Source: Tuwongella immobilis
GTDB taxonomy: Bacteria > Planctomycetota > Planctomycetia > Gemmatales > Gemmataceae
Reading direction: 5' to 3'
DNA length: 64,000 nt
Assembly: GCF_901538355.1 (NCBI RefSeq)
Contig: NZ_LR593887.1
Location: 1,960,920 to 2,024,919 of the forward strand
The notes below the pieces were generated by a model that had not been told where the DNA came from, did not search any database, and worked only from the letters and a program-made list of their open reading frames with translations. This document shows, piece by piece, positions 505 through 29,196 of the stretch; positions within the stretch are counted from its first letter, which is position 1; the number at the start of each line of letters is the position of its first letter. The translations under genes were made by a program, and so were the position numbers.

Positions 505-3054
505 ATGCCGATGGTTGCGACAACGGATGCCGACAATGATCTGCAATTGACCGACTCGAATGGGATGTTGTTCCCTCAGTACACGTCATTTGCAGCGATC
601 TTCAATCAATTCTCACGAGCTTATTCCCATCGTTGGGATGAGGCCATTCGCCACAGTGCCTCCAACGCTTTGGCGATGCGGCGGGACACGTTCATTCTGT
701 CGCTCCTTCAGGAGCGACAACTGCCGGTAACGGCGATGAACTGGTCGATCATCCCGGAAGATGAGAACGACGCGAACCAGGTGCACATCTGTGGCACTCT
801 GACCAAGATCGTCGAACGCACCCCGCGCTGGCAGTCGATGCTGCTCAACCTGCAACAGGCTCTGTGGTACGGTCGATATGGCGTGCAGATCGTGCCGAAG
901 GTCTGCGAGGTGATGGGCCAGCGCCGTTGGGTCGTGGGCGAGCACAGCCCGGTGAATGGCGACAAGATCCAGTATCAGTGGGATGGCACGCCGCTGGTGT
1001 TTCTGAACGCCTCAGAACTCGGATCGCGGTTCCAGTCGGAGGACATCGTCTACACCGACCGTGTGCCAGCGCTGCGGTTGCACCGCGATGAGTGGCGATC
1101 GCGGTTCATCATTCACAAGCACCTGTCGGATGATGCTGATTTTTTCGAAGGCGAGATGGCAGGCGGCGTTCATGGTGTCGGCCTCCGCAGCCAGGTCTAT
1201 TGGACTTGGTGGCTCCGGGACGAATTCTTGGCCTGGGCCACCGACTTCATGCAGAAGGTCGGCACGCTGGGGCTGATGGTCTTTTATTACGAGATGGGGA
1301 ACCCGAAGTCGCAAGAGGCAGCGGAGCGTGCGGCCCGTGATTGTTCCCGTCGCAATGCAATCACGATGCCCAGACCATCGGGCAGCTCGAAGGAGACTGC
1401 CAGCGCCGAACTGCTCCAGCCCACCAACACCGGGATCGAAACGCTCAAGGGCATGATCGCGGACTACTTCGAGTCGCATATCCAGCGGCTGATTGTCGGG
1501 CAATCGCTCTCGGGCAACGCTGGCAGCACGGGACTGGGCAGCGGTGTCAGCGACCTGCACGCCGACACGAAATACCAATTGCTCAAGTTCGACGCTGGCA
1601 ATCTGTCCGGCACACTGACCACCGATCTGGTCGGTCCGCTGATGCGTTGGAACTTTCCCTGGGCGAAGTTCGCGGCCCGTTTCCAGATCAATGTCCCAGA
1701 CCCCAACAACAAAGAGCAGATGGAGGCGGTCTCCAAGGCCAGTAGCCTCGGAGTCACATTCCGGGCCGATGATGTCCGCAAGCTCACCGGCATGGCCAAG
1801 CCAGGCCCAGACGATGAGGTGATTGGTCAGCAGCAGCAACAGTCCCCCGGTCTTGGGATGGCGGATGCTGACCCGCTCGCCCAGTTGCAGCGATCGGTGT
1901 CGATGCTGTATCAGCTCGTGGCCGAACGCATCCCGTGGCATTACGCGGAGCCACCCGAGGACCCGGAGTTTGAGCGGAAACACCCTCGGCGATCGGATGG
2001 CAAGTTTGGCAAAAAGGGAGCGCCTGGCGATGCGGGTGGATCCGACCCGCGTCCGACCGAGACACCCGCCCAGCGAAAGCGGCGGCTAACCCGCGACTCC
2101 ATGGAGCAGCGCGAGCGCCGAGAGTTGCGGGACCATTGGAACCGCATCCGGGCCGAAGGGCTCGGTAATGTCGACGATGTGCCGTGGGCGCTGGCGTACC
2201 TCGGCAGTCGCAGCGTGAAGACTCTCGAAAAACTGGCGAAGGAGACAATGCCCGAAGAGGTGAAGTCATATGTCCGTCAGATTTTGGATGATAAGACCAA
2301 GGTGGTTATCTTGGATCACGCTGCTGCAGAAAAGGCGTTCCAAGATTTCTTCGGCCACCCGGTCGAGAGTTCCACGATAAAAGCCCTGGCTTGGGGGCGT
2401 GATGGATGTGATGCAGAGCTGGAAGTTGTTTCATCGGGCGACACGATCAAGCTGGCATTGAGTTCTGCTGTATACCGTGGCAAGTCGGCGTTTGGAACAT
2501 CGCGTACCATACGTCGCGACAAAGACGGAAAGATCGTCCTTGAGAATGACTACGCAAAAATCGGCAAAAAATCGCGATTGCGAGGGTTATCAGCCGAATG
2601 TCTGTTGGCACAAGCGCAAGCGGCGGAGAAACTTGGCATCTCACGAATCGAAACTTATGCCGCCGGCCTCTTTTCGGAGATCTCTGATTACAATGGGTAT
2701 TACACCTGGGCGCGATGTGGCTATCTGGGCCTGATGGACGCATCGCAATTCTTAAGTCTACCTCCGGAGTATCAGCGGCTGATGGGTCGATCCCGATCGA
2801 TTCAGACGCTGATGGCATTACCTGGCGGTCGCGATGTTTGGAAGCGACATGGCAGTGGGTGGGTCGGTGTTTTCAATCCCAAAACTGGCTCAAGGTCTCG
2901 TCAGATCTTAGAAGCCTATGTCGAGGAGCGACGTCTTGAGCGAGCATCCGGCAAACCGCGAAAACGGAAAAAGCCCCGATCATCGCGGTCGGCTATCAGC
3001 CGACCAGATGGAGCAAATCCGCCGCCAATCCGACCTGAAACGCCAAGCAGTTGA
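505..3054 (+). CDS. DUF935-type phage portal protein with long C-terminal extension
   Basis: 849 residues. Residues ~1-440 match the DUF935 (Mu gp29-like) portal family: an early W/Y-rich region, then IVGQSLSGNAGS followed by a T/G-rich loop and DLVGPL. The portal forms the ring through which DNA enters the capsid and the tail joins. Portals of this family usually end near residue 450-550; this one continues for about 350 residues. After an EFERKHPRRSDGKF linker (~490) there is a basic coiled segment. A domain around residues 600-800 with the motif NGYYTWARCGYLG follows; it resembles the GNAT-like domain often appended to phage head proteins. The last ~30 residues are very basic. It overlaps the next gene by over 100 bases. 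The portal call is firm; the GNAT-like reading is inference. Confidence 0.85.
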   Translation: MPMVATTDADNDLQLTDSNGMLFPQYTSFAAIFNQFSRAYSHRWDEAIRHSASNALAMRRDTFILSLLQERQLPVTAMNWSIIPEDENDANQVHICGTLTKIVERTPRWQSMLLNLQQALWYGRYGVQIVPKVCEVMGQRRWVVGEHSPVNGDKIQYQWDGTPLVFLNASELGSRFQSEDIVYTDRVPALRLHRDEWRSRFIIHKHLSDDADFFEGEMAGGVHGVGLRSQVYWTWWLRDEFLAWATDFMQKVGTLGLMVFYYEMGNPKSQEAAERAARDCSRRNAITMPRPSGSSKETASAELLQPTNTGIETLKGMIADYFESHIQRLIVGQSLSGNAGSTGLGSGVSDLHADTKYQLLKFDAGNLSGTLTTDLVGPLMRWNFPWAKFAARFQINVPDPNNKEQMEAVSKASSLGVTFRADDVRKLTGMAKPGPDDEVIGQQQQQSPGLGMADADPLAQLQRSVSMLYQLVAERIPWHYAEPPEDPEFERKHPRRSDGKFGKKGAPGDAGGSDPRPTETPAQRKRRLTRDSMEQRERRELRDHWNRIRAEGLGNVDDVPWALAYLGSRSVKTLEKLAKETMPEEVKSYVRQILDDKTKVVILDHAAAEKAFQDFFGHPVESSTIKALAWGRDGCDAELEVVSSGDTIKLALSSAVYRGKSAFGTSRTIRRDKDGKIVLENDYAKIGKKSRLRGLSAECLLAQAQAAEKLGISRIETYAAGLFSEISDYNGYYTWARCGYLGLMDASQFLSLPPEYQRLMGRSRSIQTLMALPGGRDVWKRHGSGWVGVFNPKTGSRSRQILEAYVEERRLERASGKPRKRKKPRSSRSAISRPDGANPPPIRPETPSS

Positions 3055-6436: not shown

Positions 6437-6937
6437 GTGGCGATTGAGTATGGGCTACCCACCACCCCACCTGAGGTTCTCGCGGCGGTGGAAACCTGGC
6501 TGGTCTCGAAGGCGATCCTGCCCGCCCACCTGATTTTCGCCACGGTGGCACCGATCGACGAGCTGGAAGGACAGCCACCTGGCGATCGCTTTGTCACACT
6601 CGCAATCCCGAAGCTGACAGCCGCCATGGGCGACCAGATCGGTGGTGGGCGATACCCAGTGACCATGCAGGGCGAGTTGGAAATCACAGCGTGGGCCCGG
6701 TTGGACGTCGACCAATACTTGCGTGCCCGCAATCATCTGCAATCACCACTCGGGGCTTGGGCGTTGGTGGGTTCGATTGCGACCATTGTCCAGACAGACT
6801 TCCAGTCTTTGGGCAAATCGATCCTGGCAGAACCGTTGCGGCTGAAGTCGATTGAAGCGCAGCAGACCAAGACGCGGTCGCTTCACCGGGTGCGGATGAC
6901 TTTGGAGTTTGGTCTGGTGCTCAAGGTGGCAACATGA
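6437..6937 (+). CDS. small phage protein, tail-terminator-like size and position
   Basis: 166 residues from GTG 6437, preceded by AAGGAG at 6424-6429. The sequence has an early helix (PPEVLAAVETWLVSK), then a beta-rich core and ends in a strand (RVRMTLEFGLVL), the layout common in tail-completion or tail-terminator proteins of siphophages. No catalytic motif is visible. It ends inside the start of the next gene (4-base overlap, ATGA), so the two are translationally coupled. Function is inferred only from size, fold pattern and position. Confidence 0.5.
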   Translation: MAIEYGLPTTPPEVLAAVETWLVSKAILPAHLIFATVAPIDELEGQPPGDRFVTLAIPKLTAAMGDQIGGGRYPVTMQGELEITAWARLDVDQYLRARNHLQSPLGAWALVGSIATIVQTDFQSLGKSILAEPLRLKSIEAQQTKTRSLHRVRMTLEFGLVLKVAT

Positions 6938-9444
6938 GTGATGCGATTGAGGTGACGATCGGATACACCGGGACACCCGACTCAAGTGGTGATTTTGCCC
7001 CCACGATGTCGATTCCGTTTCAGTTCAATGATGAACTGGAACGGCAAATCAACGAATGGCTTGATGCCGACAACCCTGATTTACTGCAAGTGCTGGATCC
7101 AACATGGCCAGGTCCAGCCGCGCAACGGTTTTGCCCACCGCGTCCGCATGTGCCCAAATCGATTCCGCTCAACTGCTTGTATTGGCCGGCAGGCGGGAGC
7201 CGATGCGGTGTCTTTCGCGGGCTGGTGCGGGCTTCGCAATGGCGAGTGACAAGCAATCTGCAATCGGTGTTTTCCCTGCAAATCCGACAGATGCGTGGCA
7301 AGTATGTCGTCAAGCAAATGCGGGTGCGGATGCGAGTTCTGTCGCAGCTACCCGTAGACCGTTTCCAGCAAGGTTTCGTTCTGCTCACGCTGGTGGATGA
7401 GCGGTATGTGAGGCGATCTACCACCAATTATTTCACACCTAACACGCTCGCCTATGGTCTTCAGGCGGGCGTGCTTGATGATCTCCTTGCAGCGGGGAAA
7501 GCCTCATTCGTTTGTTACCGATACAGTGGCGAACGGTTGTTTGTGCCGTGGGCCAGCGCCAATCAAGCGGCCGGATCGGTCTTGCCACTTTATTTTGCTG
7601 GCGGCGAATTGGGTGGGCAAGCTGAACGACTGCGTCGTATCCCGACTACCGCAAGAATGCTATTCCCTCTGGTCACGATTGAGGATGGCACAAGCCCGCC
7701 AAGAGTCTTGCCGGATCCCTATGCTTGGCTGACACAGCAAGGGATGCGTGGCGGTGACTTCCTTTTCCCGGTCGGTTATAGCGTGAACATGCGGCGTGAG
7801 GGGACGCAGGTATCCATAATCGGTGCAAACGCCAGCTCCACGAACAGCAATCCTCCATCCGGCAGCGGTCTGATCAACACACCAATCTCATCTGAAGATG
7901 GTTTGGTGCTTCACGGGCTGATGCCTGCGATTTTTCGAGATAAGATCATCTTTCGGCTGCGAGATGCCGCAGCCATGGAAGTGGTGTTGAATCCGGGAAA
8001 CAATCCGCTCGATTTTCGGGATCAAGTCAATCTCGCAAGGTACGAGCGAAAACGGGTTAGTCCAAACCCCGACAATCGTGAAGACTTGCAAAAGATCGCC
8101 GTCGATCTGTATCGAAACTACATCGAAAGCCAACTGCTCATCCACCAAGGACTGGTGATGGGCTTCCATGTACTTCCGCCCGAGATGGGCCATGACTTGA
8201 TGTATCGATTCCGGCCTGACAACGTCACGGTATCCATCACAAAGCATCCGGGACAATACCAGCCGACAATCAATCTGGAGCGTGGTACATCGTCTCCGTT
8301 CTCAACACTTTTTCCGGGTGGCGGATTCCCAGGTGCGTTTCCCGATTTCACGCAATCGCCCGCACCACAGGATTATGCGCCTGGTGGGTTTTACAACTGG
8401 TGGATCGATAGCAACGGGCAAATCCGTTATGTCAATGAACCACCCGGACTCGATTTTGCCCCGGCCCATCCGGGGCTTGGATTGTTTGCGAGCATCTACA
8501 GTATTCCGGGGCGGTGCATCATTCCAGGCACACTGGAGCGATTCCACCTGAGCACCCGTGCATGGAACGAATTGCTGACCACACTTTCAACGGGCCTGCA
8601 AGGATCGCTGGTGGGTAGGCTCACGCCTGACATGTTAGCGCCCGATGAGGACTGGTCGGCACTGAGCAACCGCACGGTGTTCCAGTATCCAGCCGACGGG
8701 ATCGATGGCAGTCGCATTCGGCCGGGCACCATCCCATGGGGCGACTCCCCCAACGGATCCATTCCAACATCGAAGATCAGCGGTCTCAACGGCTACATCA
8801 TTGCCCTGATCCAGAGCGATGGGTTGACCAATTGGATGATCCGCGATGATTCCATCACGGCAGCCAAAATCGCGGCAGGGTCAGTCACCAACACCAAGCT
8901 CGCAAACAACGCTGTCACGGCGGTCAAGATCGCCGATGGCACCATCACGCTCGACAAGCTGCATGAGAGTATCCGGGCAGATCTGCCCATTCGAGCGATT
9001 GAAGTTACACCCAACAGCGTGACCACATCTGGGTTGGCAGACGAGGCTGTTACCGCGGCAAAACTGGCGGCTGGAGCGGTGACGACTCCGAAACTGGCAA
9101 ATGGGTCGGTGACCGTTGAAAAACTGGCTCCCGGGGTGCTTTCGACGCCGGGCGCCAATTCGGTCGGCACGCTGCAACTGCAAGATGATTCGATCACGGC
9201 AGCAAAGCTGCAAGCTGCCTCGGTGACGACTGAAAAGCTCGACACTGGGAGCGTGACCAACTCCAAGATCGCGGCAGGCGCTGTTGGAGCGGCTCAGTTA
9301 GGTGCAGCGGCGGTCACTGATTTTGCGTTGGCAGCAAACGCGGTGACCGAGCCGAAACTGGCGGATGGGGCGGTGAGCGCGGCCAAGATCGCGGCGGGGG
9401 CCGCGTTCAAGGTCGGTGACATTCTTCGAGGGGAGACATTCTGA
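6934..9444 (+). CDS. large tail/fibre protein with C-terminal repeat ladder
   Basis: 836 residues. Residues ~1-610 are a long beta-rich tail-region domain that I cannot assign. From ~637 to ~823 the sequence becomes a ladder of short repeats of the form (D/N)xxVTxxKLAxGA, for example DDSITAAKIAAGSVTN and ADEAVTAAKLAAGAVTTPKL, at least ten units. Ladders of this type form the trimeric beta-helical or coiled shafts of tail fibres and vary in number between strains. It starts by a 4-base overlap with the gene before and ends by an ATGA overlap with the next fibre-like gene. It is likely part of a host-recognition appendage. Confidence 0.65.
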   Translation: MSDAIEVTIGYTGTPDSSGDFAPTMSIPFQFNDELERQINEWLDADNPDLLQVLDPTWPGPAAQRFCPPRPHVPKSIPLNCLYWPAGGSRCGVFRGLVRASQWRVTSNLQSVFSLQIRQMRGKYVVKQMRVRMRVLSQLPVDRFQQGFVLLTLVDERYVRRSTTNYFTPNTLAYGLQAGVLDDLLAAGKASFVCYRYSGERLFVPWASANQAAGSVLPLYFAGGELGGQAERLRRIPTTARMLFPLVTIEDGTSPPRVLPDPYAWLTQQGMRGGDFLFPVGYSVNMRREGTQVSIIGANASSTNSNPPSGSGLINTPISSEDGLVLHGLMPAIFRDKIIFRLRDAAAMEVVLNPGNNPLDFRDQVNLARYERKRVSPNPDNREDLQKIAVDLYRNYIESQLLIHQGLVMGFHVLPPEMGHDLMYRFRPDNVTVSITKHPGQYQPTINLERGTSSPFSTLFPGGGFPGAFPDFTQSPAPQDYAPGGFYNWWIDSNGQIRYVNEPPGLDFAPAHPGLGLFASIYSIPGRCIIPGTLERFHLSTRAWNELLTTLSTGLQGSLVGRLTPDMLAPDEDWSALSNRTVFQYPADGIDGSRIRPGTIPWGDSPNGSIPTSKISGLNGYIIALIQSDGLTNWMIRDDSITAAKIAAGSVTNTKLANNAVTAVKIADGTITLDKLHESIRADLPIRAIEVTPNSVTTSGLADEAVTAAKLAAGAVTTPKLANGSVTVEKLAPGVLSTPGANSVGTLQLQDDSITAAKLQAASVTTEKLDTGSVTNSKIAAGAVGAAQLGAAAVTDFALAANAVTEPKLADGAVSAAKIAAGAAFKVGDILRGETF

Positions 9445-10793
9445 TGAGTGAAGAGTTCAGCGGGCGGATCATTCTCAGCGCCGGCCCAGCTTCGAGGATC
9501 GCAACAAAGGCACCAAACTCTGCCGACGGGGAACCGCTTTGGGCGACCGACACCAGCACGCTTTACATCTGCCAAGGAGGGAAAGCGATTCAGATCAGCC
9601 CGAGTGGCGGACTCGCAACCGTCGCAGTCGCGTCGGCTGGCGGGCTGTCGGGCGACGGCGACACGACGCCTCTGCGAATCAACTCAGCCAACATGCCTGA
9701 TAATCCGGAGCCAGACGCCGCTGCGTATCTGGCGATCCTTGGCGGTGATGGTGCCGACGTGGAGCGGTGCAAGATTGGAGATATGCTATCGTCCGTTGTG
9801 TCCGGAGGCGTAACGATCAGCAGCGCGGGAGCAGCGACTGTGACGGCAATTCGCGGCGTCAACATCTCTGCAGCAACGCCAGCAACGAATCAAGTGCTCA
9901 CCTACAACGGCACCGTCTGGACCCCAGCCGCGCTGCCTGCCAGCCCACCACCGCCGCCAGCCGTCGACGTCGGCAACATCCCCGGCCCGCTTCGGATCGG
10001 TTCATTTCAGACGGTGAGCTTCACATCCAATTCAACGATTAGTGTTGGAAGCACAACGACTCATTTGGACCTAAGCAACACGTCGGGCAGCACGCGGCAA
10101 GTGCTCGGTTTCACCGGGGGCGACACGGGCCGTGTTTTGTATGTGACCGTGACCGGAAGCTCAATCACCTTGCGGAAAGACAGCTCTTCTGCGAGCGTCG
10201 GCAATCGCATCAACGCGCCAGGGTCTGGTTCTGACATCGATCTAGTAACGCTCAATTTCGGCGAGACGGCAACATTCGTTTATCGCGGATCTTCTGGCTC
10301 CGGTTATTGGGAGTATTCGGCGAACTCGCCTTTGTCTGTTCCAATCGAGCGAGTCTCCAATCGTGGAGCATTGGCGTCGCTGAATTCGGTCACTTCGAAT
10401 TTGCTCAATCTGACCACCGACACCACCACCGGCAGCTATTCCGTAGCGTCGGGCACGTTCACCGCCACCGGCCGCGAGTTCACCAATCTGGTGGCAGGGA
10501 CATATCTGCTGTTGGTCGAGGCGGATGTTGGGATCGGGATCAGCGCTGGACCAGATGCGGAGATTCAGTGTGAACTGTGGAACTCGACAGCAGGCAGTGC
10601 AATCGCCACTCGCTCCATGAACAAGGGCTTCGGCACGGCTGCGGTGGCCGGTCGGCACAGCTTCTTTGTGCTGTTCACGCTCAGCGCGACTTCGACGGTC
10701 CAGCTCCGGGCTCGGCGGCTATCCAGCGGATCGCCAACGTGGAGCTTTTCAAATCTCAGCGGCATTGTGATGACCTACATCCGAATTGGCTGA
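9444..10793 (+). CDS. fibre-like protein with C1q/TNF-like C-terminal domain
   Basis: 449 residues, ATG overlapping the preceding stop codon. The N-terminus (FSGRIILSAGPAS, then EPLWATDTSTLYICQG) is the short beta-hairpin adapter often found on phage tail fibre and hyaluronidase-like proteins. A proline bridge (PPPPP, ~170) separates it from a Ser/Thr/Gly-rich shaft. The last ~130 residues (SLNSVTSNLLNLTT through GIVMTYIRIG) have the alternating strands of a C1q/TNF-like trimeric head. This is probably the receptor-binding tip paired with the repeat-ladder protein upstream. The C1q-like call is by strand pattern only. Confidence 0.6.
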   Translation: MSEEFSGRIILSAGPASRIATKAPNSADGEPLWATDTSTLYICQGGKAIQISPSGGLATVAVASAGGLSGDGDTTPLRINSANMPDNPEPDAAAYLAILGGDGADVERCKIGDMLSSVVSGGVTISSAGAATVTAIRGVNISAATPATNQVLTYNGTVWTPAALPASPPPPPAVDVGNIPGPLRIGSFQTVSFTSNSTISVGSTTTHLDLSNTSGSTRQVLGFTGGDTGRVLYVTVTGSSITLRKDSSSASVGNRINAPGSGSDIDLVTLNFGETATFVYRGSSGSGYWEYSANSPLSVPIERVSNRGALASLNSVTSNLLNLTTDTTTGSYSVASGTFTATGREFTNLVAGTYLLLVEADVGIGISAGPDAEIQCELWNSTAGSAIATRSMNKGFGTAAVAGRHSFFVLFTLSATSTVQLRARRLSSGSPTWSFSNLSGIVMTYIRIG

Positions 10794-10881: not shown

Positions 10882-11571
10882 ATGCGAATAATGCTGACCG
10901 TCCTCTCTCTGTGCGTCCTGCACATCCCCGCACGCGCTGACCCGATGATCTCCCTGCCTCCGGCGCTCACTGCTCAGCCGGGTCGCTTGCTCCGCGTCAC
11001 CGCCGAGACCGAAGGCAAACTCGTGCGGTGGGTGGTAACCGGCGAGGCCGATTTGATCCCGCTGAATGAAAGCGGCAAGTCCGCCATCTTCTCGGCGGCG
11101 GTGCCCGGTGTGTTCAAGGTGATCGCATACACGGCCAAGGGTGACATCCCCTCTGAGCCCGCTGTCTGCGTCGTGACCGTGGGCAATCCGACTCCACCGG
11201 CGCCCCCGACTCCACCCATACCAGTGCCGCCGGCTGACCCGTTGGCCGCCGAGCTGCGGGCATTGCTCGCGGCGGACAGCTCTCCGGAGAAGGGCAAGCA
11301 CGTCGAATCCCTTTGCGAACTGTACCGGCAGGCCCAACTCACCGCTGACGATCCTGCGGTTGGAACCGCTGGGGCACTGGCCGAGATCTTGAAGCGTTCC
11401 AGCGCGGCACTGGTGCCGCCGGGAGTCATTCCAGGGGTGCGAAAGCGAGTGTCGGAAGTGCTGAACGAATCGCTCCCCCGCGATGCTGGTGAGCGTCTCA
11501 CCGTGGAAAGCAGGCAGCGTGCGAAGGCCACATTTGCACGCATCCAAAAGGCTCTTTGCGAGGCTCAATAA
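10882..11571 (+). CDS. secreted Ig-like phage protein of unknown function
   Basis: 229 residues with a Sec signal peptide (MRIMLTVLSLCVLHIPARA, cut predicted after ARA). Residues ~25-95 form a beta-sandwich-like segment (SLPPALTAQPGRLLRVTAE to VCVVTVG). A proline-rich hinge (PPAPPTPPIPVPP) and a ~115-residue helical C-terminal domain follow. It opens a three-gene group with a papain-like protease and a holin-like protein, the stop and next ATG overlapping by one base. A role in the envelope at lysis or in superinfection exclusion is possible. No enzyme motif is present. Its ribosome site lies in a hairpin (10818-10875). Confidence 0.55.
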   Translation: MRIMLTVLSLCVLHIPARADPMISLPPALTAQPGRLLRVTAETEGKLVRWVVTGEADLIPLNESGKSAIFSAAVPGVFKVIAYTAKGDIPSEPAVCVVTVGNPTPPAPPTPPIPVPPADPLAAELRALLAADSSPEKGKHVESLCELYRQAQLTADDPAVGTAGALAEILKRSSAALVPPGVIPGVRKRVSEVLNESLPRDAGERLTVESRQRAKATFARIQKALCEAQ

Positions 11572-12626
11572 TGGCCAGGTGGTTCAAGATTTTTGCAGCG
11601 ATCCTGGGAGCATTGGCGACGGCATTGGCAGCATTCGTGCTGACCGTTGCTCCAGTGCCAGATCCCGAGATCGCTGTGCCAGGTGCATTCGGTTGGGTCG
11701 CTGACCCTGATGCCGTCGCCGAGGTGGCGAAGGCGCAACCATCGCCCACCATCGCCCAGACTCCGGCGGGTGGCGTTCCCGTCGAGTCGCTCCCAGACCA
11801 TGCGTATCTCTGGGAGTTGGAACGCAACGTGACGGGGCAGAATCCCCCGCCACAGAATCAAAAATCGGTTGGCTCGTGCGTATCCTTCGGGACCGCCCGT
11901 GCAATCGAGCGGACATTGGCTGGGCAACGGCAGGGGGCGCCTCCTGTCCGGCTCGTCGAGGAAGTCATCTACGGTGGCAGCCGTGTCGAGATCGGTGGCG
12001 GTCGAATCAGTGGCGATGGCAGCATCGGCGCTTGGGCCGCTGAGTTCGTCAAGCAGTACGGCGTCTTGGAGCGCGCCGCTTACCCCGGCTACGATCTGCG
12101 ATCGTACTCCGAATCGCTCTGCCGTGACTTTGGCCGGCTTGGTGTGCCCGACCCGCTGGAACCCACCGTTCGACGCTTCCCGGTTAAGTCGATCACCCAG
12201 GTGACGACATGGGATCAGGCCAAGCAAGCGCTGGCCAGCCGCTACGGCATCGCCATCAGCAGCAGCCAGGGGTTCCAGATGCAGCGAGATTCTCGCGGTG
12301 TCTGCGGGCCGTTTGGCCGCTGGATGCACTGCATGTGCTTGGATGGATACCATCGGGACGCGGACGGAACCGAGTACGGTCACATCGAGAACAGTTGGGG
12401 AGCCGATGCCCATCGTGGCCCGGTCGGGTGGGGCAACCCATCCACGGCAGGCTTCTGGGCCCGCGCTGATGTCATCGACAAGATGCTTCGCCAGGGCGAT
12501 TCCTGGGCATTCAGCGATGTCCAGGGGTTCCCGGCTCGCCTCGACTGGCTACTGATCAACCCCAAGGAGCGTGCATATGCCGCTGTTTCCAAGGCTACGG
12601 AACCGCATCATCACTCGAATCGTTGA
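11571..12626 (+). CDS. papain-like (C1-type) cysteine protease, membrane-anchored or exported
   Basis: 351 residues from ATG 11571, which overlaps the preceding stop; an upstream TTG is less likely. Residues ~5-30 are a hydrophobic signal or anchor. The catalytic set of clan CA peptidases is visible: Q97 and C103 in QNQKSVGSCVSFG, H253 in the segment before CLDGYH, and N274 in HIENSWG. The spacing and the NSWG ending match family C1. In this phage it stands between a secreted protein and a holin-like protein, where an endolysin would be expected; no muramidase or amidase is seen in the window. It could cleave envelope proteins or a peptide cross-link. The peptidase fold is secure; the substrate is not. 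Confidence 0.75.
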   Translation: MARWFKIFAAILGALATALAAFVLTVAPVPDPEIAVPGAFGWVADPDAVAEVAKAQPSPTIAQTPAGGVPVESLPDHAYLWELERNVTGQNPPPQNQKSVGSCVSFGTARAIERTLAGQRQGAPPVRLVEEVIYGGSRVEIGGGRISGDGSIGAWAAEFVKQYGVLERAAYPGYDLRSYSESLCRDFGRLGVPDPLEPTVRRFPVKSITQVTTWDQAKQALASRYGIAISSSQGFQMQRDSRGVCGPFGRWMHCMCLDGYHRDADGTEYGHIENSWGADAHRGPVGWGNPSTAGFWARADVIDKMLRQGDSWAFSDVQGFPARLDWLLINPKERAYAAVSKATEPHHHSNR

Positions 12627-17184: not shown

Positions 17185-18255
17185 ATGGCAACGCCACGTT
17201 TTCTTTCACCGTACAACGGGTACATCCCGGCCGCGACTGGCCAGGCGATCGCCTTTGTGCGGGATCCGAAGAAGTTCAAGCTGAACGAATACGCTCAGCT
17301 CATCAAGAGTCCGAAGCCGGTCGGGATCTACAGCTATCTCGATCCGGACTACGGGACGCGAGTCGTGACGGATGAGGAGTTCGCCTGGGAAGATGGCGAC
17401 CGCCGACCTCAAAACAATCACAACTTGGCGAGCTTCAAGTTCGAGTCGTTCCGCTGCAAGCGGCGCAACTATGGCTTCACTTTGGGTTACGAAGCCATCG
17501 AAAACGCCGAAGGCAGCTTCGATCCGAAGATGTTCCACCAAGCGGGCATCCTCACCCAGGCGATGACCAACAAGACATCGCGGGTGATCAAGATGCTCGA
17601 AAACCCCACCAACTGGGGCAATAACCACGCGACTGCGGATGTGCTCAATGGCGGTTTCGGTGGCTGGGATTTGGCGGCGGCTGACCCCAGTAGCCCGTAC
17701 TACCTGGCCATCCGCAAAACTCTGAACGAAGCCGTCCGCCGCATCGTGCTGATGACCAACGGCATGGTCACCATCAATGACCTTCGGCTGGTGATCAGTC
17801 CGGGACTGGCCAAGACCATCTCCGAGACGGATGAGATCAACGCCTTCCTCAAGAACAATCAGTTTGGTCTGGGGCAGGTGACCGGCGGTGTGGCGAACCA
17901 GAACGAGAACTATGGTCTGCCGCCGCGGTATGCCAATCTGCCGATCATCGTCGAGGATGCGGTGATCGTCACGTCCCGGCCCAAGGCAAACGGTGCCCCC
18001 GCAGTCATGGACGTGGACCGCACCTTCATCAAGAGTGATGACAGCGCCATCATCTGCTCGCGTGTAGGCGGTCTGGACGGGAACTACGGCTCACCGTCGT
18101 TCTCCACCGTGCAGCTCTACTTCCACAAGTATGAGCTCACCGTGGAAGGCTTCGATGACCCCGAGAACAAGCGCTACAACGGCAACGTCGTGGATCACTA
18201 CCACGAGGTCCTCGCGGCTGCACCGGCAGGTTACCTCATCGAAGGATGCAAGTAA
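17185..18255 (+). CDS. major capsid protein
   Basis: 356 residues. Length, position between decoration and connector genes, and sequence features point to the HK97-fold major capsid protein: a polar N-arm, a spine-helix region around ~115-165 and beta-rich P and A domains later (NLPIIVEDAVIV, DDSAIICSRVGGLDG). The C-terminus (YHEVLAAAPAGYLIEGC) is typical of unprocessed Mu-like capsid proteins. Hundreds of copies would form the head. No cleavage site is evident, although the protease gene upstream could trim it. Confidence 0.75.
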   Translation: MATPRFLSPYNGYIPAATGQAIAFVRDPKKFKLNEYAQLIKSPKPVGIYSYLDPDYGTRVVTDEEFAWEDGDRRPQNNHNLASFKFESFRCKRRNYGFTLGYEAIENAEGSFDPKMFHQAGILTQAMTNKTSRVIKMLENPTNWGNNHATADVLNGGFGGWDLAAADPSSPYYLAIRKTLNEAVRRIVLMTNGMVTINDLRLVISPGLAKTISETDEINAFLKNNQFGLGQVTGGVANQNENYGLPPRYANLPIIVEDAVIVTSRPKANGAPAVMDVDRTFIKSDDSAIICSRVGGLDGNYGSPSFSTVQLYFHKYELTVEGFDDPENKRYNGNVVDHYHEVLAAAPAGYLIEGCK

Positions 18256-20770: not shown

Positions 20771-21301
20771 ATGAACATTTGCATGGATTCTTCCGCGCTG
20801 TTTTGTCTGATTTCTGACCCAGCTATTTCTTTTTCCGGATCTGAATATCAGGAACGGGTGAAAAACTATTGCGAAGGAAATCATTCGATCATCATCCCGC
20901 CTCTTGTTGTAGCTGAAATTCTCGCAATCGTAAAAGCGTCTCGGAAGTCAGCGGTTCTGAGCTGGCTAAGCGAACATGTGATACCGTCTTTTGACTTTGC
21001 CACTGCAGTCAAACTGGATGAGCTCTACCAAAAAGTGCCGGGTGACAAGTCGAAAGAAAAATCGACAGCTTTCGGCGAAGGGTCAAGAACATGTTTTAAG
21101 TATGACCTTTTGATATTAGCGGTTGCGGTGCTGGCAAAATCACACGTGATGCTGACCAATGATAAACGCCTAAAAAATATGTGTAACGAGTTGACTGACG
21201 TCAGGGCGATTCTTCTCTCCGATTTACCGGAAGGCTCTTGCGATTCAAGCGCAGCCCCACCGCCAACGTCCAGCCCGAGATTATTTGATGATGTCGAGTA
21301 G
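20771..21301 (+). CDS. PIN-domain ribonuclease-like protein
   Basis: 176 residues, ATG start. The PIN catalytic pattern is visible: D6 (NICMDSSAL), E49 (PPLVVAEILA), D112 (FKYDLLILAVA) and D131 (MLTNDKRLKNMC), with the usual spacing. PIN proteins cut RNA and often act as VapC-type toxins. The last ~25 residues are a Pro/Ser tail. It is cotranscribed with the 251-residue gene, not with a VapB-like antitoxin, so it may be an accessory or defence module of the lysogen. The PIN call is good; the target RNA is unknown. Confidence 0.7.
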   Translation: MNICMDSSALFCLISDPAISFSGSEYQERVKNYCEGNHSIIIPPLVVAEILAIVKASRKSAVLSWLSEHVIPSFDFATAVKLDELYQKVPGDKSKEKSTAFGEGSRTCFKYDLLILAVAVLAKSHVMLTNDKRLKNMCNELTDVRAILLSDLPEGSCDSSAAPPPTSSPRLFDDVE

Positions 21302-21361: not shown

Positions 21362-21559
21362 TTACTTCTTCGGCTGCGGTGGCTCGCTTCGCTCTCCCGG
21401 CGGGCGAATCTGGCGATTGAAATAATCAGGATCGTCCTTCAGTTTCTTGTTCGTGTCTTTTTCAATCGCGTTGAGCCAATCCACCATTTCTGGCTTCGTT
21501 TCCTGCGGAGGCTTACACCCCGCGCCGAGCAGCATCACCGCCATCAGTACCCATCGCAT
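21362..21559 (-). CDS. small phage lipoprotein sharing its C-terminus with the tape measure
   Basis: 65 residues from ATG 21559, with AGGGG upstream. It begins with a lipoprotein signal (MRWVLMAVMLLGAGC, lipobox LGAGC). The rest is a short charged helix ending in DPDYFNRQIRPPGERS. That end, and the preceding (M)(V)DWLxA motif, match the C-terminus of the tape-measure candidate (DPDYFNKQIRPPGEQS). Small phage lipoproteins are often outer-membrane spanins or exclusion factors; here neither is proven. It closes the minus-strand block and overlaps no other gene. Confidence 0.55.
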   Translation of the reverse strand: MRWVLMAVMLLGAGCKPPQETKPEMVDWLNAIEKDTNKKLKDDPDYFNRQIRPPGERSEPPQPKK

Positions 21560-21618
21560 TGCTATTCCCCTTTGCACGATTGGACTTGCAGCAATGATGC
21601 TACCACGGTGCGGCGAAG

Positions 21619-23526
21619 TCAATCAAGCAAGGATTCTAACAGCCAGTTGTCCCCATCACCGGTCGTGCCCCAAACCAAATCGCTCGAACGTCCTTTGGTG
21701 GCACCAGCAGAGGCAAAGGTGAGCTGTCCATCGCGGCGAATGTATGGCGTCACAGGCGCGGTAACCTGCACTTGATCCGCGAATGCAGAGACGTAGTGGT
21801 AGACACCAGCCACTTCGTAGATGAACGACACGCCATCCGCCGCCAGGCGAATATTGTTGACATCGCAGCTGCGGTCCAGTGGGATCCAGTTGGAGTATTC
21901 GCCCTCACCAGGATCTGGGTCAGGAACAACCGGGGGGCTGCCCGTTCGCTTGCATGACCAAGTGACATCGAGGTAGGTCACGGCAGCCCCCATCTGCAAC
22001 ACGGTCACTCGCTCGCCAGGCGCTGTTGGGGTCAGCACATGGCGATTGGATTTGACACGATAGCGAGACTTGATCGTGTAGTGATCATAGACCCCCGGAT
22101 CGGGATCTTCGTACCTTGTCGGGATGGCAGGTAGCGATGCCACCTCGGTAATGCTGGTAATCAGGTTGCCGATGCTGGCGATGATTCCCCCGGCGGTGGT
22201 CCGCACTTGCACTTGTCCAGTCGGTGCCGATGACGATTCTGTGGCCGCTGTCGAGTTAGTTGCGTGCCGTCGGCTCTCCGTCCCTTGGGTAGTGACGGGT
22301 GGCTTTTCTTGCCCGCCACCGCTCCAGATGCTGCCGGACAGAACCCGTTCTTGCTGCTGGACATACGCTTCCGCGCAGGGATCTTTGAAAGCAAATGCCA
22401 GCATACGCAGGAATCCAACATTCCCATCGGTCCCCGGGCCGACTCCAGGAGTGTTTGCCGTGATTTCTTTCTTGGGATCCCATCCACGGTTATCCCAACG
22501 ACTGAGATCGGCATCCTTGCCAGACACCCCCAGCAGCGTCGAGGGCGGCTTGATTTGTGCTCGGAGGCTAATGTCGACCGTTGGCTCAAACAAGTCCTGC
22601 ATCACTGTGCCGGCGACCATGAACTGAGAACGGTCAACTTGTCCATTGGTCCCCAGCGGGTTCGCGATTTTCAGTTTGGTCAATCCGATTCCCACAGCGC
22701 GTTGAAGGAGTTGCGAGTAAGAAGTGTTTTTGGCACCAGTCAATCGAAGCTGGACCTGACCGTAGACGAGCCCATCCGTGCCAGTGGTTTCCAGGTATTT
22801 GCCGCTTGCTTTGATAGCCGGGACTGGCGCCATGACAAACTGTTCCACGTCCGTCATCTCGAAGTCCATCGCAAGCCCGTCGGCTTGCAACGTGTATCGA
22901 GTCTGTGATCGAACAAAGCCTGTTGGCACTGCCGGTGTCACGCTCGCTCGCAGTTCATCAGGCGACTTTCTGACATCGCGTCGCGTGATCATTCGACCGG
23001 TTGTGGTCTGCGTGCAAATCCACTTTTCATCAAAGCCCAGCGATTGAGTCCATCGGATCGACAGAATCGCTGAGTCTTTTTGATCACAGCCGAGAATTGT
23101 TGTTTCGATGGAAAATTCTACCAAGAAAGTCTCAGCCGTGATCTTGTGAGCCCGAAGCACTTTGGGTGTTGGTCCCTTGGCGATGTCTTTGGTCTCCGGT
23201 GCGTCCATGTCACCGGTCACATGGATGATGGGCGAATTCCCCACCCCGTACCACAGCGTCTTTCGGGGGGTGAGTAGCTTGGTTCGGATCGCTGCCAATT
23301 GCACTGCTGGATCGACGGCGTTGCTCAACCCTTGTTGGACGGACTCCAGCGTTTTGGTTCCTCGGTCAGCTTGCGCCGTCGGTGCCGTGGAGAGAATCCC
23401 CGTCACATGGATCGTGACAGCGAACCCAATCACATCGGTGTTCGTCGGATCGTAAACCGCCTGCTGCTCAACGGTTTGCGTCGAGATGTACGGGATTTCA
23501 ATACCGTTGTAGATCAACTTACTCAT
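21619..23526 (-). CDS. distal tail / baseplate-type structural protein
   Basis: 635 residues. It starts by an ATGA overlap with the stop of the tape-measure candidate, so it is translated after it. The N-terminal ~400 residues are beta-rich with many Thr/Val segments (IHVTGILSTAPTAQADRG, VQLRLTGAKNTSY). The C-terminal ~230 contain Pro-rich hinges and further strand repeats. That position, right after a tape measure, is where distal tail or tail-associated lysin proteins stand in siphophages. I see no lysozyme or peptidase motif. The structural role is inferred from position and composition. Confidence 0.5.
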   Translation of the reverse strand: MSKLIYNGIEIPYISTQTVEQQAVYDPTNTDVIGFAVTIHVTGILSTAPTAQADRGTKTLESVQQGLSNAVDPAVQLAAIRTKLLTPRKTLWYGVGNSPIIHVTGDMDAPETKDIAKGPTPKVLRAHKITAETFLVEFSIETTILGCDQKDSAILSIRWTQSLGFDEKWICTQTTTGRMITRRDVRKSPDELRASVTPAVPTGFVRSQTRYTLQADGLAMDFEMTDVEQFVMAPVPAIKASGKYLETTGTDGLVYGQVQLRLTGAKNTSYSQLLQRAVGIGLTKLKIANPLGTNGQVDRSQFMVAGTVMQDLFEPTVDISLRAQIKPPSTLLGVSGKDADLSRWDNRGWDPKKEITANTPGVGPGTDGNVGFLRMLAFAFKDPCAEAYVQQQERVLSGSIWSGGGQEKPPVTTQGTESRRHATNSTAATESSSAPTGQVQVRTTAGGIIASIGNLITSITEVASLPAIPTRYEDPDPGVYDHYTIKSRYRVKSNRHVLTPTAPGERVTVLQMGAAVTYLDVTWSCKRTGSPPVVPDPDPGEGEYSNWIPLDRSCDVNNIRLAADGVSFIYEVAGVYHYVSAFADQVQVTAPVTPYIRRDGQLTFASAGATKGRSSDLVWGTTGDGDNWLLESLLD

Positions 23527-24866
23527 GATTGCTCTCCTGGTGGGCGAATTTGTTTGTTGAAGTAATCCGGATCGGCTGCCTGTTGGCGGCGTCCTTGATC
23601 TGCGACCGCTTGAAGCCAGTCCGACATGACGCGTGTGTCGGCTTCTTGCTGCTCACGTTCTGCACGCGATTTGAACAAGTCCAGCCCGGCGTTGACCGCT
23701 TTTGAGATCCACCCCAGCGGGCGAACGGCTTCGGTGATCAGGCTCTGCGCTCCACCCATGAGGGTGTTGCCGATGCGTCCCGTCAGTACCTCGATCTCTT
23801 TGGTGACATCCTTCCAGTTCTGGTCTTGGCGGCTGAGATAGCCCGCCGAGGAGGCCAGCCGCTGCCCCTTCTCAAGATCCCGAAGCGTGTCCTGGATTTT
23901 GGCACTGGCAAAGATCGCGGCCATCGCCGGTGACACCCCAGCCAGCGCCTTGTTGTGTTCGAGCATTTCCTTGGTGCCAGCTCGAACCGCCTTGCCAAAC
24001 TCCAGCAAGGCGCTGGCAGCCGCGACATAGGGCACCGCTTTGCCCGCCAGTCGATTGACCGCCCGAGACGCCAATGGGCTGGCCAGCGCCTTGTGAACCG
24101 TCGGGGTGATGATCCGGCCGTTCTTGTCGATGTTGGCCCCACGCGAGATCTGGCCCCGTCCCAGATCGCGTGGCCGCGCTGAGGCTGGTTGTTGTGGTTG
24201 TTGCGACTCATCACTTCCAGCCGATCCCGGTGATTGTGGGCCGCCACCTCCGCCGCCAGCTCCGCCCGCGCCCCCGCCGAAAGCGCGTGGCTTCTTCATC
24301 CGCCGTCCCAACGACTTGGCAAGACTGCTGGACAGCTTCATCACGGGTTGGATCAGTCGCCGGTTCAGGATGCTGGTCGGCTCGGTTGTCTCCGCCGCCG
24401 AGCCACCGAACTTGCTCAAGGCTTTGCCCAAGCGAGCCAGCCCACGGTACCGCCGTTTTTGTGGGCCAGCAGGATCCTCGCCGGCATCGGCGTCACTCGG
24501 CGCGGGGGCGGGCGTTGGCGTTGGGATCGGGGTGCCAGATGCGCCAGAGCGGGCAGCGGTGATTGAGAGTCGCAAGAACTGCTCGAACATCGTCTGGATC
24601 GCGGGTGCGAATTGGACGATGCCGTTCCCGCCTTGGGCGCTTGGTTGGCTGGTCCCGGCGGGAGAGGCTGACTTTGACTTGGGCTGATCCCCTTCGAGGA
24701 TCGGCAGCGATCGCGGGCCAGCGGGGCCAGGATCTTTCACCCCGTAGCCACCTTCGGACATTTTGTTCAGTTGCTCCAGGCGCTCTTCGGACATGCCCGG
24801 ATGGAACATGCGGAGCAGATCTTTGCCCGCGATTGTATTCACAGACTCATGAACTTTCGGCGTCAC
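23523..24866 (-). CDS. tape-measure-like tail protein
   Basis: 447 residues from GTG 24866; AAAGGAG stands seven bases upstream of it, so the start is well supported and longer in-frame readings are unlikely. Residues ~1-150 are charged and Pro/Ser-rich; ~150-230 basic; ~230-420 helical with hydrophobic stretches (AVPYVAAASALLEFGKAV, LAGVSPAMAAIFASAKIQDT), as in tape measures that set tail length. The last 16 residues (DPDYFNKQIRPPGEQS) are shared with the lipoprotein at 21362-21559. It is on the opposite strand to the tail chaperone that should assist it. Confidence 0.55.
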   Translation of the reverse strand: MTPKVHESVNTIAGKDLLRMFHPGMSEERLEQLNKMSEGGYGVKDPGPAGPRSLPILEGDQPKSKSASPAGTSQPSAQGGNGIVQFAPAIQTMFEQFLRLSITAARSGASGTPIPTPTPAPAPSDADAGEDPAGPQKRRYRGLARLGKALSKFGGSAAETTEPTSILNRRLIQPVMKLSSSLAKSLGRRMKKPRAFGGGAGGAGGGGGGPQSPGSAGSDESQQPQQPASARPRDLGRGQISRGANIDKNGRIITPTVHKALASPLASRAVNRLAGKAVPYVAAASALLEFGKAVRAGTKEMLEHNKALAGVSPAMAAIFASAKIQDTLRDLEKGQRLASSAGYLSRQDQNWKDVTKEIEVLTGRIGNTLMGGAQSLITEAVRPLGWISKAVNAGLDLFKSRAEREQQEADTRVMSDWLQAVADQGRRQQAADPDYFNKQIRPPGEQS

Positions 24867-24977
24867 AATGGATCTCCTTTGTCGAAGTGACAGAGGATTG
24901 TTCCACTGATGCTGCGGAGACGCCGCCGGAATGGTATGATGAACAGAATCGCACTTCTTGGTTTTCAGAGAGGTTGT

Positions 24978-25598
24978 ATGCCACCACAACCAGCCCGTTC
25001 CCGCGCTGCAGCCGACGACCTGTTTCGGCTCAACCAAGGGCTCGCCATCCAAGCGGCCATCTTGCTCCGCGACTGTCAGTCGCTCATCCCATTCGATGAC
25101 TTGAAACAGATCGCCCTGATGACCCTGTGGCAAGTCTGCCTGAAATGGGATCCGCGCTCCAACACCAAGTTCTCCACCTTCGCCTACACGACGATCAAGA
25201 ATCGGCTCATCAATGCGATCCGCACCACCCACCGGCTGCCATTGGCGGAGCGTGAAGACGATTGCCCCTTGGCATCCGTCCACGACCGTCAAGCGTTGCC
25301 CGAGCGAGACCCCGACAGCATGGGAACAATCCGGGAATGGTTGGCCCAACTCGACCAGCCCATCGATCGGCAAGTGATCATCATGAGCTATGGGCTTGAC
25401 GGTTGTGGCTATTCACTGGACCAAATCGCGGCGGGACTGGGGATCAAACGGCGGCAAGTCGCCATCTATCTCCGGCGTGCCATGGACAAACTGGCGGTCA
25501 TCGCGGGGGTGAAAGATGCAGTGGTTAAAGACAAACCAAGTCCGCGTCGAAGGCATGTTGTTTCACAGACAGGCGATCTGTTCGCAGACTGTGAGTGA
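24978..25598 (+). CDS. phage-encoded sigma-70-family factor
   Basis: 206 residues from ATG 24978 with AGAGAGG upstream; two earlier in-frame ATGs lack a ribosome site. Region 2 is clear (FDDLKQIALMTLWQV, then FSTFAYTTIKNRLINAIR), and region 4 has a helix-turn-helix (YSLDQIAAGLGIKRRQVA, then YLRRAMDKL). Region 3 is short, as in ECF-type or phage sigma factors. It could direct RNA polymerase to late phage promoters. It starts divergently from the tape-measure gene and overlaps the ParB-like gene by 83 bases. The basic C-terminal tail is unusual. Confidence 0.8.
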   Translation: MPPQPARSRAAADDLFRLNQGLAIQAAILLRDCQSLIPFDDLKQIALMTLWQVCLKWDPRSNTKFSTFAYTTIKNRLINAIRTTHRLPLAEREDDCPLASVHDRQALPERDPDSMGTIREWLAQLDQPIDRQVIIMSYGLDGCGYSLDQIAAGLGIKRRQVAIYLRRAMDKLAVIAGVKDAVVKDKPSPRRRHVVSQTGDLFADCE

Positions 25599-26282: not shown

Positions 26283-28034
26283 TTAGCCAAATCGAACACC
26301 GAATAGTCCACCGGTCTCCGTAGCGTCTGTCAACCTCGGTTGAACAACATACGGTGTGGGATCGAACTCCGGTGGCACCGCGTCCGAGTTCATCGTCACG
26401 ATATATTGCCAGCCGATTCGCTTGGCGGTAGCCGCTCCTATAGAGAGTGCTTTGGCGATTTGCCGTTCATCGACACCATCGAACAAATGGCTATCATGTA
26501 TCAAGAACCCCGGCCCGATCTTCCGCTCGGCACACAGACGAGCAATCATCATGTCGAAGCAGAAGATTTGCATGTTGCTAATCCCCTTGCTCTTGGCGGC
26601 ATGAATGTTCACGTCGAACTTCGGCCCGTTCGATTCCGGGCTGATCGTCAGGCTTCCGGGGCTTTCGTAGAGAGCTTCGGAGATTTCCCCGAAGACGAGA
26701 ACCGCAGCTTTGATGCTGTCTTTTTGTTCGTGATAGTCCTGTCGAAGCCGTGTCAGCAAGCGACCGCGTTCCAGTTCCAGTTCCGTCTTGCCGCTCTCCA
26801 AATCTTCCGCCGTCTTGAGCCGTTGTCGGAGTGCTTCGACCTCGGCACCCAAGCGGGTGACTTCACTTTGCAGGAGCGTGAATTGTTCCAACGCCCCATG
26901 CGTTTTGAGAAGGTTGAGGATTTCGGCACGGCGAGTATCTCGCTCGCGTTTCTCCCGCTCCCGCTCCTCGATTCGGCGCTGGGCGTCCTGTTGTTCCTGC
27001 TGCAAATAGGAGCGGCGATTGGCGATCACGGATTCGTGGAATCGCTGAACCTCATCGTACCGGCGCAACGCCACGCCCGGCAGCGAAACTCCCGCATCTT
27101 GGTAAAGCTGAATCAGATCTGTCAACGGAGGCGGCGTCTCGGACTCGATGGACTTTCCGAGTTCCGCGAGAAGCTGGCGATCAAGGGCGTTTTCGTTGGC
27201 CAAGTCGTTGAGGCGCTGGGTAAGTTCCGATGCTTCACGTTCCAAATCCCGATATTGAGGAAGAACGCGGAAACTTTTCACCCGCTCGACCGCTTGCCGA
27301 TAGCGATCTTCGTGCAGTGTGAGTTTGGTTTGCAGTTCAGCGGCCTTGCCCACGAAATCGCCGAATACGCCTTGTGCCCCAGCCTTGCGGATCGCTTCTA
27401 GGCCTTTTTCTTTCTCTCGAACGACTTGCCAGCCTTGTGGGATAGTCCAATCCAAACCAAAGAGAAACGAGATAGCAACCTGCTGATCCCACGGCAGTTG
27501 CTTCCCAGACTGCTGAAACGCCGAGATAAAGCCCTGCGAGGATTGACGGCGGGCAAAATACGCAAACAGTGAACGAAACGTGGGTGTGAACTTCGTAGAT
27601 TCCTCTTCCTCGTCCTCCGCGAGGCCAAACAACAACTGTGCTAAAATTGATTTCCAGTTGGGATTGGATACGGTCAGCCGCTTCGACTTTTTATCTTTTT
27701 TCGGAGCAATTGGCCAATCCGTTGTCTCGCCACCTGCGATGACAATTTTGCTATGACTCGAGCCGCTTCGCTCCACAGCGACACGGTGCCCTCCTAGGTC
27801 GAATTCAAGGCCGAACGACGATTCAATCAACTCCGGTACGCGGAAAATCGAATCCGGGTAGCAGTTGCCACCCGTCAGGAAATGAATCAGTTCGACGAAA
27901 CTGGATTTCCCAGCCCCGTTGCGTGTTTGGCGATCCGTTGCCCCCGGACTTTTATCCGCGAGAACGAGGTTCAGACCTTCACGGAAGGTTAGCTCTTTGA
28001 AGCCTCCCAAGTCGCTGTAGACGCGGTGGATCAT
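26283..28034 (-). CDS. DUF2326-type ABC ATPase of an ABC-three-component system
   Basis: 583 residues. Walker A is RNGAGKSSFVELIHFL (residues ~40-55), preceded by ADKSPGATDRQT. Residues ~190-450 are a long coiled coil, as in SMC-like ATPases. The C-terminal ~100 carry the DUF2326 signature (FLIHDSHLFDGVDERQIAKA, then YIVTMNSDAVP). ABC-3C systems described in ABC ATPase surveys pair such an ATPase with a middle component and an effector-type protein. It overlaps the middle-component gene by four bases (ATGA) and is last in the operon. A sensor/motor role in defence is likely by family; the trigger is unknown. Confidence 0.8.
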   Translation of the reverse strand: MIHRVYSDLGGFKELTFREGLNLVLADKSPGATDRQTRNGAGKSSFVELIHFLTGGNCYPDSIFRVPELIESSFGLEFDLGGHRVAVERSGSSHSKIVIAGGETTDWPIAPKKDKKSKRLTVSNPNWKSILAQLLFGLAEDEEEESTKFTPTFRSLFAYFARRQSSQGFISAFQQSGKQLPWDQQVAISFLFGLDWTIPQGWQVVREKEKGLEAIRKAGAQGVFGDFVGKAAELQTKLTLHEDRYRQAVERVKSFRVLPQYRDLEREASELTQRLNDLANENALDRQLLAELGKSIESETPPPLTDLIQLYQDAGVSLPGVALRRYDEVQRFHESVIANRRSYLQQEQQDAQRRIEEREREKRERDTRRAEILNLLKTHGALEQFTLLQSEVTRLGAEVEALRQRLKTAEDLESGKTELELERGRLLTRLRQDYHEQKDSIKAAVLVFGEISEALYESPGSLTISPESNGPKFDVNIHAAKSKGISNMQIFCFDMMIARLCAERKIGPGFLIHDSHLFDGVDERQIAKALSIGAATAKRIGWQYIVTMNSDAVPPEFDPTPYVVQPRLTDATETGGLFGVRFG

Positions 28035-28276
28035 GATGCCACCTTCTCAATTCTTCCACGCTCGACTCTAACCGCATTTATCAGAAACAACAGATCGAGA
28101 GCGAGTACGAACCAGTCATACGTCACGGGAGCAAGCCCCGATTGGGCCGACCGTGCAGACTGCAATTCCTGCCAGAGCCGTGAAACCGTCTTGGGTTCAT
28201 CCACCAAACGAAGTACCTCCGCCCCAACGTAGAGCAAGGAACGATCCTGACTGAGCCGCTTGGTAGGTAGAATCAT
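28031..28276 (-). CDS. ABC-3C middle component (MC6-like)
   Basis: 81 residues. The pattern LPTKRLSQDRSLLYVGAEVL followed by TVSRLWQEL and a helical end matches the small middle components of ABC-3C systems, nearest to the MC6 type by eye. They link the ATPase to the effector. The start overlaps the stop of the gene upstream (ATGA), and its own stop overlaps the ATPase start, so the three proteins are translated together. The ABC-3C assignment depends on the joint presence of all three genes. Confidence 0.7.
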   Translation of the reverse strand: MILPTKRLSQDRSLLYVGAEVLRLVDEPKTVSRLWQELQSARSAQSGLAPVTYDWFVLALDLLFLINAVRVERGRIEKVAS

Positions 28277-29196
28277 GGTGCCGGCTCCTCAGAAGGCCGC
28301 TCGAAAATATCGCACTCCTCAAACAAGTAGGCCAGCACGGTCAGAGTCGCCGCCTGACGCGACGGTGTAGCAAGAGTGGTTCCATTCCCGATGAGTTGCA
28401 GCCGAGCGAAGATGTTATCGGGCGTGAGGTTAGCATTCCGCAGCGCTTCGTACTCGCTCCGGAACGCTTGCGCGACGCGATCTCCTTGCTCTGGATCGTG
28501 GTGGTTGCTGAAGTAGTCTCGAATCTTGGTACTCGAACCCATTCCAGCTTTCAGCAACAATTCTACGGCGGGAGAAAGTGCATTGGCTTCCAACTTCTTC
28601 GGAGGAACAGGCCGAACGTCCACCGCTTGCGGTTTTGTCAATAGTTCTAAGGTCTTTAGAACCTGCTCGACTTCTGGGTATTGAACATTGATCAGGTCCG
28701 TTCGAGACGGGATTGGGCCGAGGAGTGACGCGAGTTCCGGGAAGGCGAGTTCAAACACGACCTGCCGCAACTCCTCAAATCCCCAAGACCGCACTCGGAC
28801 ATGCTGATTGCCGCTATCGAGGTCCAAGAGTTTTTTCGTAACGCCGGGACCTAGCCCCTGCATCGAATTGTGAACAAACACCCATGTATCGAATTGATCC
28901 GACCAATGGAGTAACGCGCCTTCATAGTCCTCGTCGATCTTCGTGAGGGTCTTTGATTCCTCTACTTCATTCGGTGCGTAGACTTGGAACAACGTTCGTG
29001 TGGAGCCGACATAGCCATCGTTCTTACGGTCCCCTTGATTCCCCCAAGGCCTCGTGCGGATGAAATCGCTGGGGTACTTCTTCTCCATGATCGACGAGAA
29101 CAAATCCTGAAATGCCTCCCCTCGCTTCTCAAGGAAGGCAATTCGGAACGCTTGTTCGTAGAAAGCTCGCGTGAACTGGTCCACGGTTGTTCCCAA
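28273..29196 (-). CDS. ABC-3C effector/CTD protein with REase-like N-terminus
   Basis: 307 residues from TTG 29196; GTG at 29184 is an alternative. Residues ~20-130 look like a restriction-endonuclease-fold domain: an early Glu helix (EKRGEAFQDLFSSIMEK), then RKNDGYV and RTLFQVYAP, where D and Q-x-Y stand in the positions of a D...(D/E)xK core. The C-terminal ~150 residues resemble the CTD shared by ABC-3C proteins (SSTKIRDYFSNHHDP and a helical end). As first gene of the operon it probably is the effector that cuts DNA or RNA on activation. The nuclease reading is inference because the Lys is replaced. Confidence 0.6.
   Translation of the reverse strand: MGTTVDQFTRAFYEQAFRIAFLEKRGEAFQDLFSSIMEKKYPSDFIRTRPWGNQGDRKNDGYVGSTRTLFQVYAPNEVEESKTLTKIDEDYEGALLHWSDQFDTWVFVHNSMQGLGPGVTKKLLDLDSGNQHVRVRSWGFEELRQVVFELAFPELASLLGPIPSRTDLINVQYPEVEQVLKTLELLTKPQAVDVRPVPPKKLEANALSPAVELLLKAGMGSSTKIRDYFSNHHDPEQGDRVAQAFRSEYEALRNANLTPDNIFARLQLIGNGTTLATPSRQAATLTVLAYLFEECDIFERPSEEPAP

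Follow-up and report, generated by a model that had tools for sequence, protein, structure and literature searches.

A small prophage lipoprotein in Tuwongella immobilis repeats the C-terminal end of its own tape-measure candidate and may act in superinfection exclusion

The window, by which we mean the whole stretch of 64,000 nucleotides that was analysed, is part of a prophage, P1, in the 6.69-Mb planctomycete chromosome of T. immobilis. An integrase (PF00589), an HTH-S24 repressor and a terminase of the same prophage lie just upstream of the window. A related prophage, P2, is located at about 6.405-6.445 Mb on the same chromosome and also has the gene pair described here, a tape-measure protein candidate (TMP) and a small lipoprotein. 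An integrase and a CI-type repressor are present in both P1 and P2, which places the lipoprotein gene in temperate phages. The following features of the window were used, with coordinates counted from its first nucleotide.

505 to 3054, plus strand: Mu-type portal protein (PF06074, 2.1e-47)
17185 to 18255, plus strand: major capsid protein candidate, 99% identical in P2
19264 to 19824, plus strand: chaperone-like gene
21362 to 21559, minus strand: small lipoprotein (the mimic), 65 aa, lipobox LGAGC
21386 to 21487, minus strand: TMP-like module of the lipoprotein, MVDWLNA...DPDYFNRQIRPPGERS, residues 25-58, from alignment
21392 to 21433, minus strand: lipoprotein tag DPDYFNRQIRPPGE
21594 to 21622, minus strand: promoter-like TTGACT-17-CATCAT upstream of the lipoprotein, suggestive only, at chance level in a scan
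21619 to 23526, minus strand: tail protein downstream of the TMP ("hub"), 635 aa, 94% identical in P2
23523 to 24866, minus strand: TMP candidate, 447 aa, GTG start, from gene order and weak profile matches
23526 to 23627, minus strand: C-terminal module of the TMP, MSDWLQA...DPDYFNKQIRPPGEQS, residues 414-447, from alignment
23532 to 23573, minus strand: variable 14-residue tag of the TMP, DPDYFNKQIRPPGE, which is DPEYFSKYTKPPGE in P2

The lipoprotein starts at the ATG at 21559, with an AAGGGG ribosome-binding site ahead of the start codon, and its gene comes after the hub gene on the same strand in both P1 and P2. The P2 counterpart of the promoter-like site is TTGATT-17-CATCAT; the site is conserved between the prophages, yet remains at chance level in the scan. 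The TMP is a candidate, not proven, whose identity is backed by gene order and weak profile matches. In Limnoglobus roseus the gene order is chaperone-like gene, TMP, hub, and a weakly similar chaperone-like gene (scores 73-74) lies directly upstream of the TMP in two L. roseus prophages. One of 12 TMP homologues matched PHROG 167 (tail length tape measure, 1.7e-4). Searches of PHROG, Pfam and PDB gave no confident assignment for the window's TMP, hub or lipoprotein, and the P1 lipoprotein had no profile match in Pfam or PHROG. AlphaFold models were poor, with a mean pLDDT of 43 for the hub and 42 for the TMP; the TMP model was helical at low confidence.

Other genes of the window surround this pair. 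A 47% GC segment of P1 (19850-21310), containing a PIN-domain gene (20771-21301, PF01850) and an unknown 251-aa gene, is missing from P2, where its flanks adjoin. A sigma-70-type factor gene (24909-25598), also present in P2 at 98% identity, lies directly upstream of the TMP gene and is divergent from it. A papain-family cysteine protease domain (PF00112) follows an N-terminal hydrophobic stretch at 11556-12626. The minus strand at 26283-29196 carries a three-gene block including an ATPase-like 583-aa protein, which may be a defence system of the ABC-three-component type.

The ungapped alignment of TMP residues 414-447 with lipoprotein residues 25-58 has 19/34 identical residues and equal DWL-to-DP spacing. 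The modules gave a Smith-Waterman score of 109, while the best of 2000 shuffles scored 43. Both reading frames are present, and the likeness of the two C-terminal ends, first pointed out in a sequence-only reading of this DNA, is confirmed. The same reading held that the two genes are otherwise unrelated, and the remainder of the TMP indeed scores only 28 against the lipoprotein. The module accounts for 34 of the 50 residues past the lipobox cysteine. Minus its signal peptide, the lipoprotein is little beyond a copy of the TMP end.

When the whole 6.69-Mb genome was searched in six frames with the lipoprotein as query, the TMP end was matched at E = 2.7e-8. The remaining significant matches were the lipoprotein itself and both counterpart genes of P2. 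The motif, which might have turned up in many unrelated proteins, thus occupies four places in the genome and is not widespread, because the significant matches are limited to the TMP and lipoprotein genes of two prophages. A degenerate pattern search of viral contigs did not find it.

Head and tail proteins of P1 and P2 are mostly 94-100% identical. The exceptions are the portal (90%), a 666-aa gene (85%), the TMP tag, the lipoprotein and the fibre genes (46% and 68%). The fibre-like genes lie at 6934-10793 of the window, and the two genes just upstream of them are 100% identical. The P2 TMP ends in DPEYFSKYTKPPGEQS, and the P2 lipoprotein contains DPEYFSRYTRPPEERS flanked by two related repeats, each of about 72 residues; the P1 lipoprotein resembles a shortened version of it. 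Between P1 and P2 the TMP has one replacement in codons 251-431 and five in the last 16 (Fisher P 1e-5). The same four replacements (D/E, N/S, Q/Y, I/T) separate P1 from P2 in the TMP tag and in the lipoprotein tag. Silent positions cluster by gene and not by prophage, the N/S codon being AAC/AGC in the TMP and AAT/AGT in the lipoprotein. Simple gene conversion is argued against, because the silent sites group by gene while the replacements are mirrored, and this combination fits compensating changes. Comparison of the TMP tag with the lipoprotein tag of the same prophage gave pS 0.70 and pN 0.08 for P1, and pS 1.22 and pN 0.16 for P2.

Three further, related prophages with a small mimic protein, two strong cases and one weak, were found in L. 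roseus PX52 (L036, L038 and L040). The mimic gene is located between the TMP and the hub on the opposite strand. Its product has one hydrophobic helix and a C-terminal part that repeats the TMP end of its own prophage. Beyond this copy no relation was seen between the helix proteins and the lipoproteins of P1 and P2. The anchoring signals are of two kinds, a lipobox in P1 and P2 and a hydrophobic helix in the three L. roseus proteins, whose flanking charges leave the orientation of the helix undecided. The L036 tag, NNIGEAGRKLVE, scored 83 with its cognate partner and at most 47 in non-cognate pairings, with pS 0.76 and pN 0.08. The L038 tag, KAAKEFDEEQQR, scored 78 and at most 33, respectively. 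L040 scored 48 with no codon signal and is inseparable from background, since a control phage also scored 48. In L081, a fourth prophage of L. roseus, the small gene is missing and the TMP and hub genes adjoin, so the small gene looks like an inserted moron.

The sequence-only reading had also raised a recent local duplication with no conservation. In three pairs the silent sites are near saturation and the residues are kept (Fisher P 4.5e-4, 2.9e-7 and 6.1e-5). The silent sites show that the P1 and P2 copies separated long ago, so these are not recent duplicates and the match has been maintained. Recent duplication was rejected by silent-site divergence for P1, P2 and L036. L038 does hold a recent copy: the end of its TMP gene and that of the reverse small gene form a 34-bp perfect inverted repeat in codon register (L038:8060-8184), a sign that the tag DNA was copied recently.

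Near the TMP gene of related prophages, mostly in convergent orientation, is a gene for another kind of anchored protein, some 180 aa long and with a common "HKELAAYLRQQGV" region (L033:7687-8232, L035:9974-10489, L037:8850-9398, L039:10775-11317 and L041:5999-6823). The L041 version is a 274-aa lipoprotein in which the region occurs twice. None of the five matched a TMP, and they are possibly another exclusion type.

The pairing is known in five prophages from two genomes, the L040 pair being weak. About 25 other planctomycete prophage loci showed no TMP-end mimic, and planctomycete prophages found via the TMP and via the hub yielded no further clear pair. In this wider scan the background was high at high-GC loci, and the TMP was picked automatically in part of it. 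The best TMP-end scores in the reference phages HK97, TP-J34, lambda, Tuc2009 and D3112 were 40-48, none of them to an anchored small protein. Viral contigs contained only three distant TMP-like loci, all without a mimic, and no relatives of the hub or of the L038 TMP.

Divergence of the TMP tail (the last 16 residues) was compared with that of the body (the preceding 80). For mimic-bearing pairs the likeness of tail versus body was 0.69 vs 0.99 (P1/P2) and 0.38 vs 0.70 (L038/L040); pairs involving L036 were too divergent for this comparison. For pairs with no detected mimic it was 0.88 vs 0.63 (L033/L035) and 0.94-1.00 vs 0.65-0.75 (L077/L078/L079). A tail that is more divergent with a mimic and more conserved without one is what tail-matched exclusion would predict, and the trend comes from few independent pairs.

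Among known exclusion proteins, those that halt genome entry sit outside the cytoplasmic membrane on a helix or lipid anchor (PMC3952083). Ltp of Streptococcus thermophilus phage TP-J34 is, like the P1 and P2 mimic, a prophage-encoded lipoprotein; it blocks genome entry, and its presumed contact is a TMP's C-terminal end (PMC3952083). Ltp and the P2 lipoprotein have two internal repeats each. Unlike the mimic, Ltp bears no likeness to the TMP of its phage (best score 41, away from the TMP end), and its gene sits in the lysogeny module rather than beside the TMP gene. Homology with Ltp was considered and rejected, the P2 lipoprotein scoring 29 against it with no Pfam or PHROG match.

HK97 gp15 blocks genome entry in a manner dependent on the tail tube and TMP genes, and hybrids with other tail tube and TMP genes escape it (PMC10883804). 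It too is a small moron with an N-terminal membrane anchor, encoded beside the TMP gene, but it is not similar to the end of the HK97 TMP (score 37, to an internal part). Its gene is upstream of the TMP on the same strand, whereas those of L. roseus lie downstream in reverse orientation. The step at which Ltp and HK97 gp15 act is the one proposed for the mimic, but both lack a likeness to their own TMP. SieA of P22, an inner-membrane exclusion protein, is believed to target the entry conduit once this has been ejected (PMC10883804); it differs in belonging to a short-tailed phage, and no report was found of a copied conduit-protein end. SNIPE is a membrane-bound defence that associates with the TMP during genome entry and is thought to bind TMPs (PMC13190303), but unlike the mimic it is a nuclease with no TMP copy. 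A literature search, with most subscription papers outside it, turned up no exclusion protein described as mimicking a TMP end.

The sequence-only reading had proposed two roles for the shared module, docking on a common partner or exclusion of superinfecting relatives. Two outcomes that it had named as refuting, a motif common among unrelated proteins and a recent duplication with no conservation, were checked for this pair and neither occurred; the co-variation, P2 and the L. roseus cases came only with the later comparison. Comparative evidence favours exclusion rather than a tag for docking in general: the tag co-varies, diverges between co-residents and recurs on a non-homologous anchor in another genus. 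From the presumed contact of Ltp with a TMP and the escape of TMP and tube hybrids from HK97 gp15, we infer that an anchored TMP end would block phages with the same end. We therefore felt, with some reserve, that the lipoprotein is probably a membrane-anchored copy of its own TMP C-terminus acting in superinfection exclusion. In the lysogen the lipoprotein would be expressed and would display the TMP-end peptide in the envelope. An infecting phage that has this same TMP tail would release its TMP from the tail tip to assist passage of the genome through the inner membrane; the released TMP would then meet the decoy, and genome entry would fail. The step we prefer is like-to-like capture, in which the decoy would enter the incoming TMP oligomer and poison it. 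A close alternative is that decoy and TMP tail would compete for one host receptor. Like-to-like capture would account for the mirrored conservative changes, since one fixed host receptor would leave less need to follow. The decoy would have to match the TMP tail, and on this proposal the TMP and lipoprotein genes would change together. Co-resident prophages would need different tails because a tail like the resident's would bar a phage from entry. A broader form of this proposal is held only tentatively. In it, recognition would be like-to-like, and the tag would set exclusion groups whose diversification lets related prophages live in one host. Lipid and transmembrane-helix anchors would be interchangeable, so the tag alone would carry specificity.

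Identical peptides would also be expected if the TMP and the anchored protein docked on one phage partner (chaperone, hub or tube) in assembly or release, for instance when tails are brought to the membrane or in lysis, with no part in exclusion. The genes do lie in the tail region, and in P1 and P2 the hub and lipoprotein genes come in that order on one strand. The candidate partners, however, are nearly unchanged between P1 and P2 (tube-like 100%, chaperone-like 98%, hub 94%), yet the tag changes. The L. roseus gene runs against the late tail genes, and the small gene is dispensable because it is missing from L081. We consider docking of this kind unlikely.

It is more improbable again that the anchored peptide works by diverting a host defence or protease that senses TMP tails, a decoy protecting the phage's infection or its tail maturation. 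Host systems that sense TMPs exist, SNIPE among them (PMC13190303), and a decoy of this kind would need to match its own TMP. But a decoy made in the lysogen would be no help to a virion entering a new cell, and one host sensor would be expected for both co-resident prophages, whose tags differ. Least probable in our estimate, and already disfavoured, is a neutral relic, a duplicated TMP tail end whose copy has no function. The inverted repeat of L038 demonstrates that such DNA copying occurs, and the P1 lipoprotein could be read as a truncated P2 form, but residues kept at near-saturated silent sites in three pairs and the co-varying replacements argue against it.

It is poorly understood how a TMP drives DNA passage over the inner membrane and how exclusion proteins block TMPs. 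Copying a short piece of the TMP, a decoy would mark the contact residues, and it offers a testable rule, namely that the tag decides who is excluded. Scanning phages for small anchored proteins that repeat the end of their own TMP would be a simple route to exclusion genes that homology searches miss.
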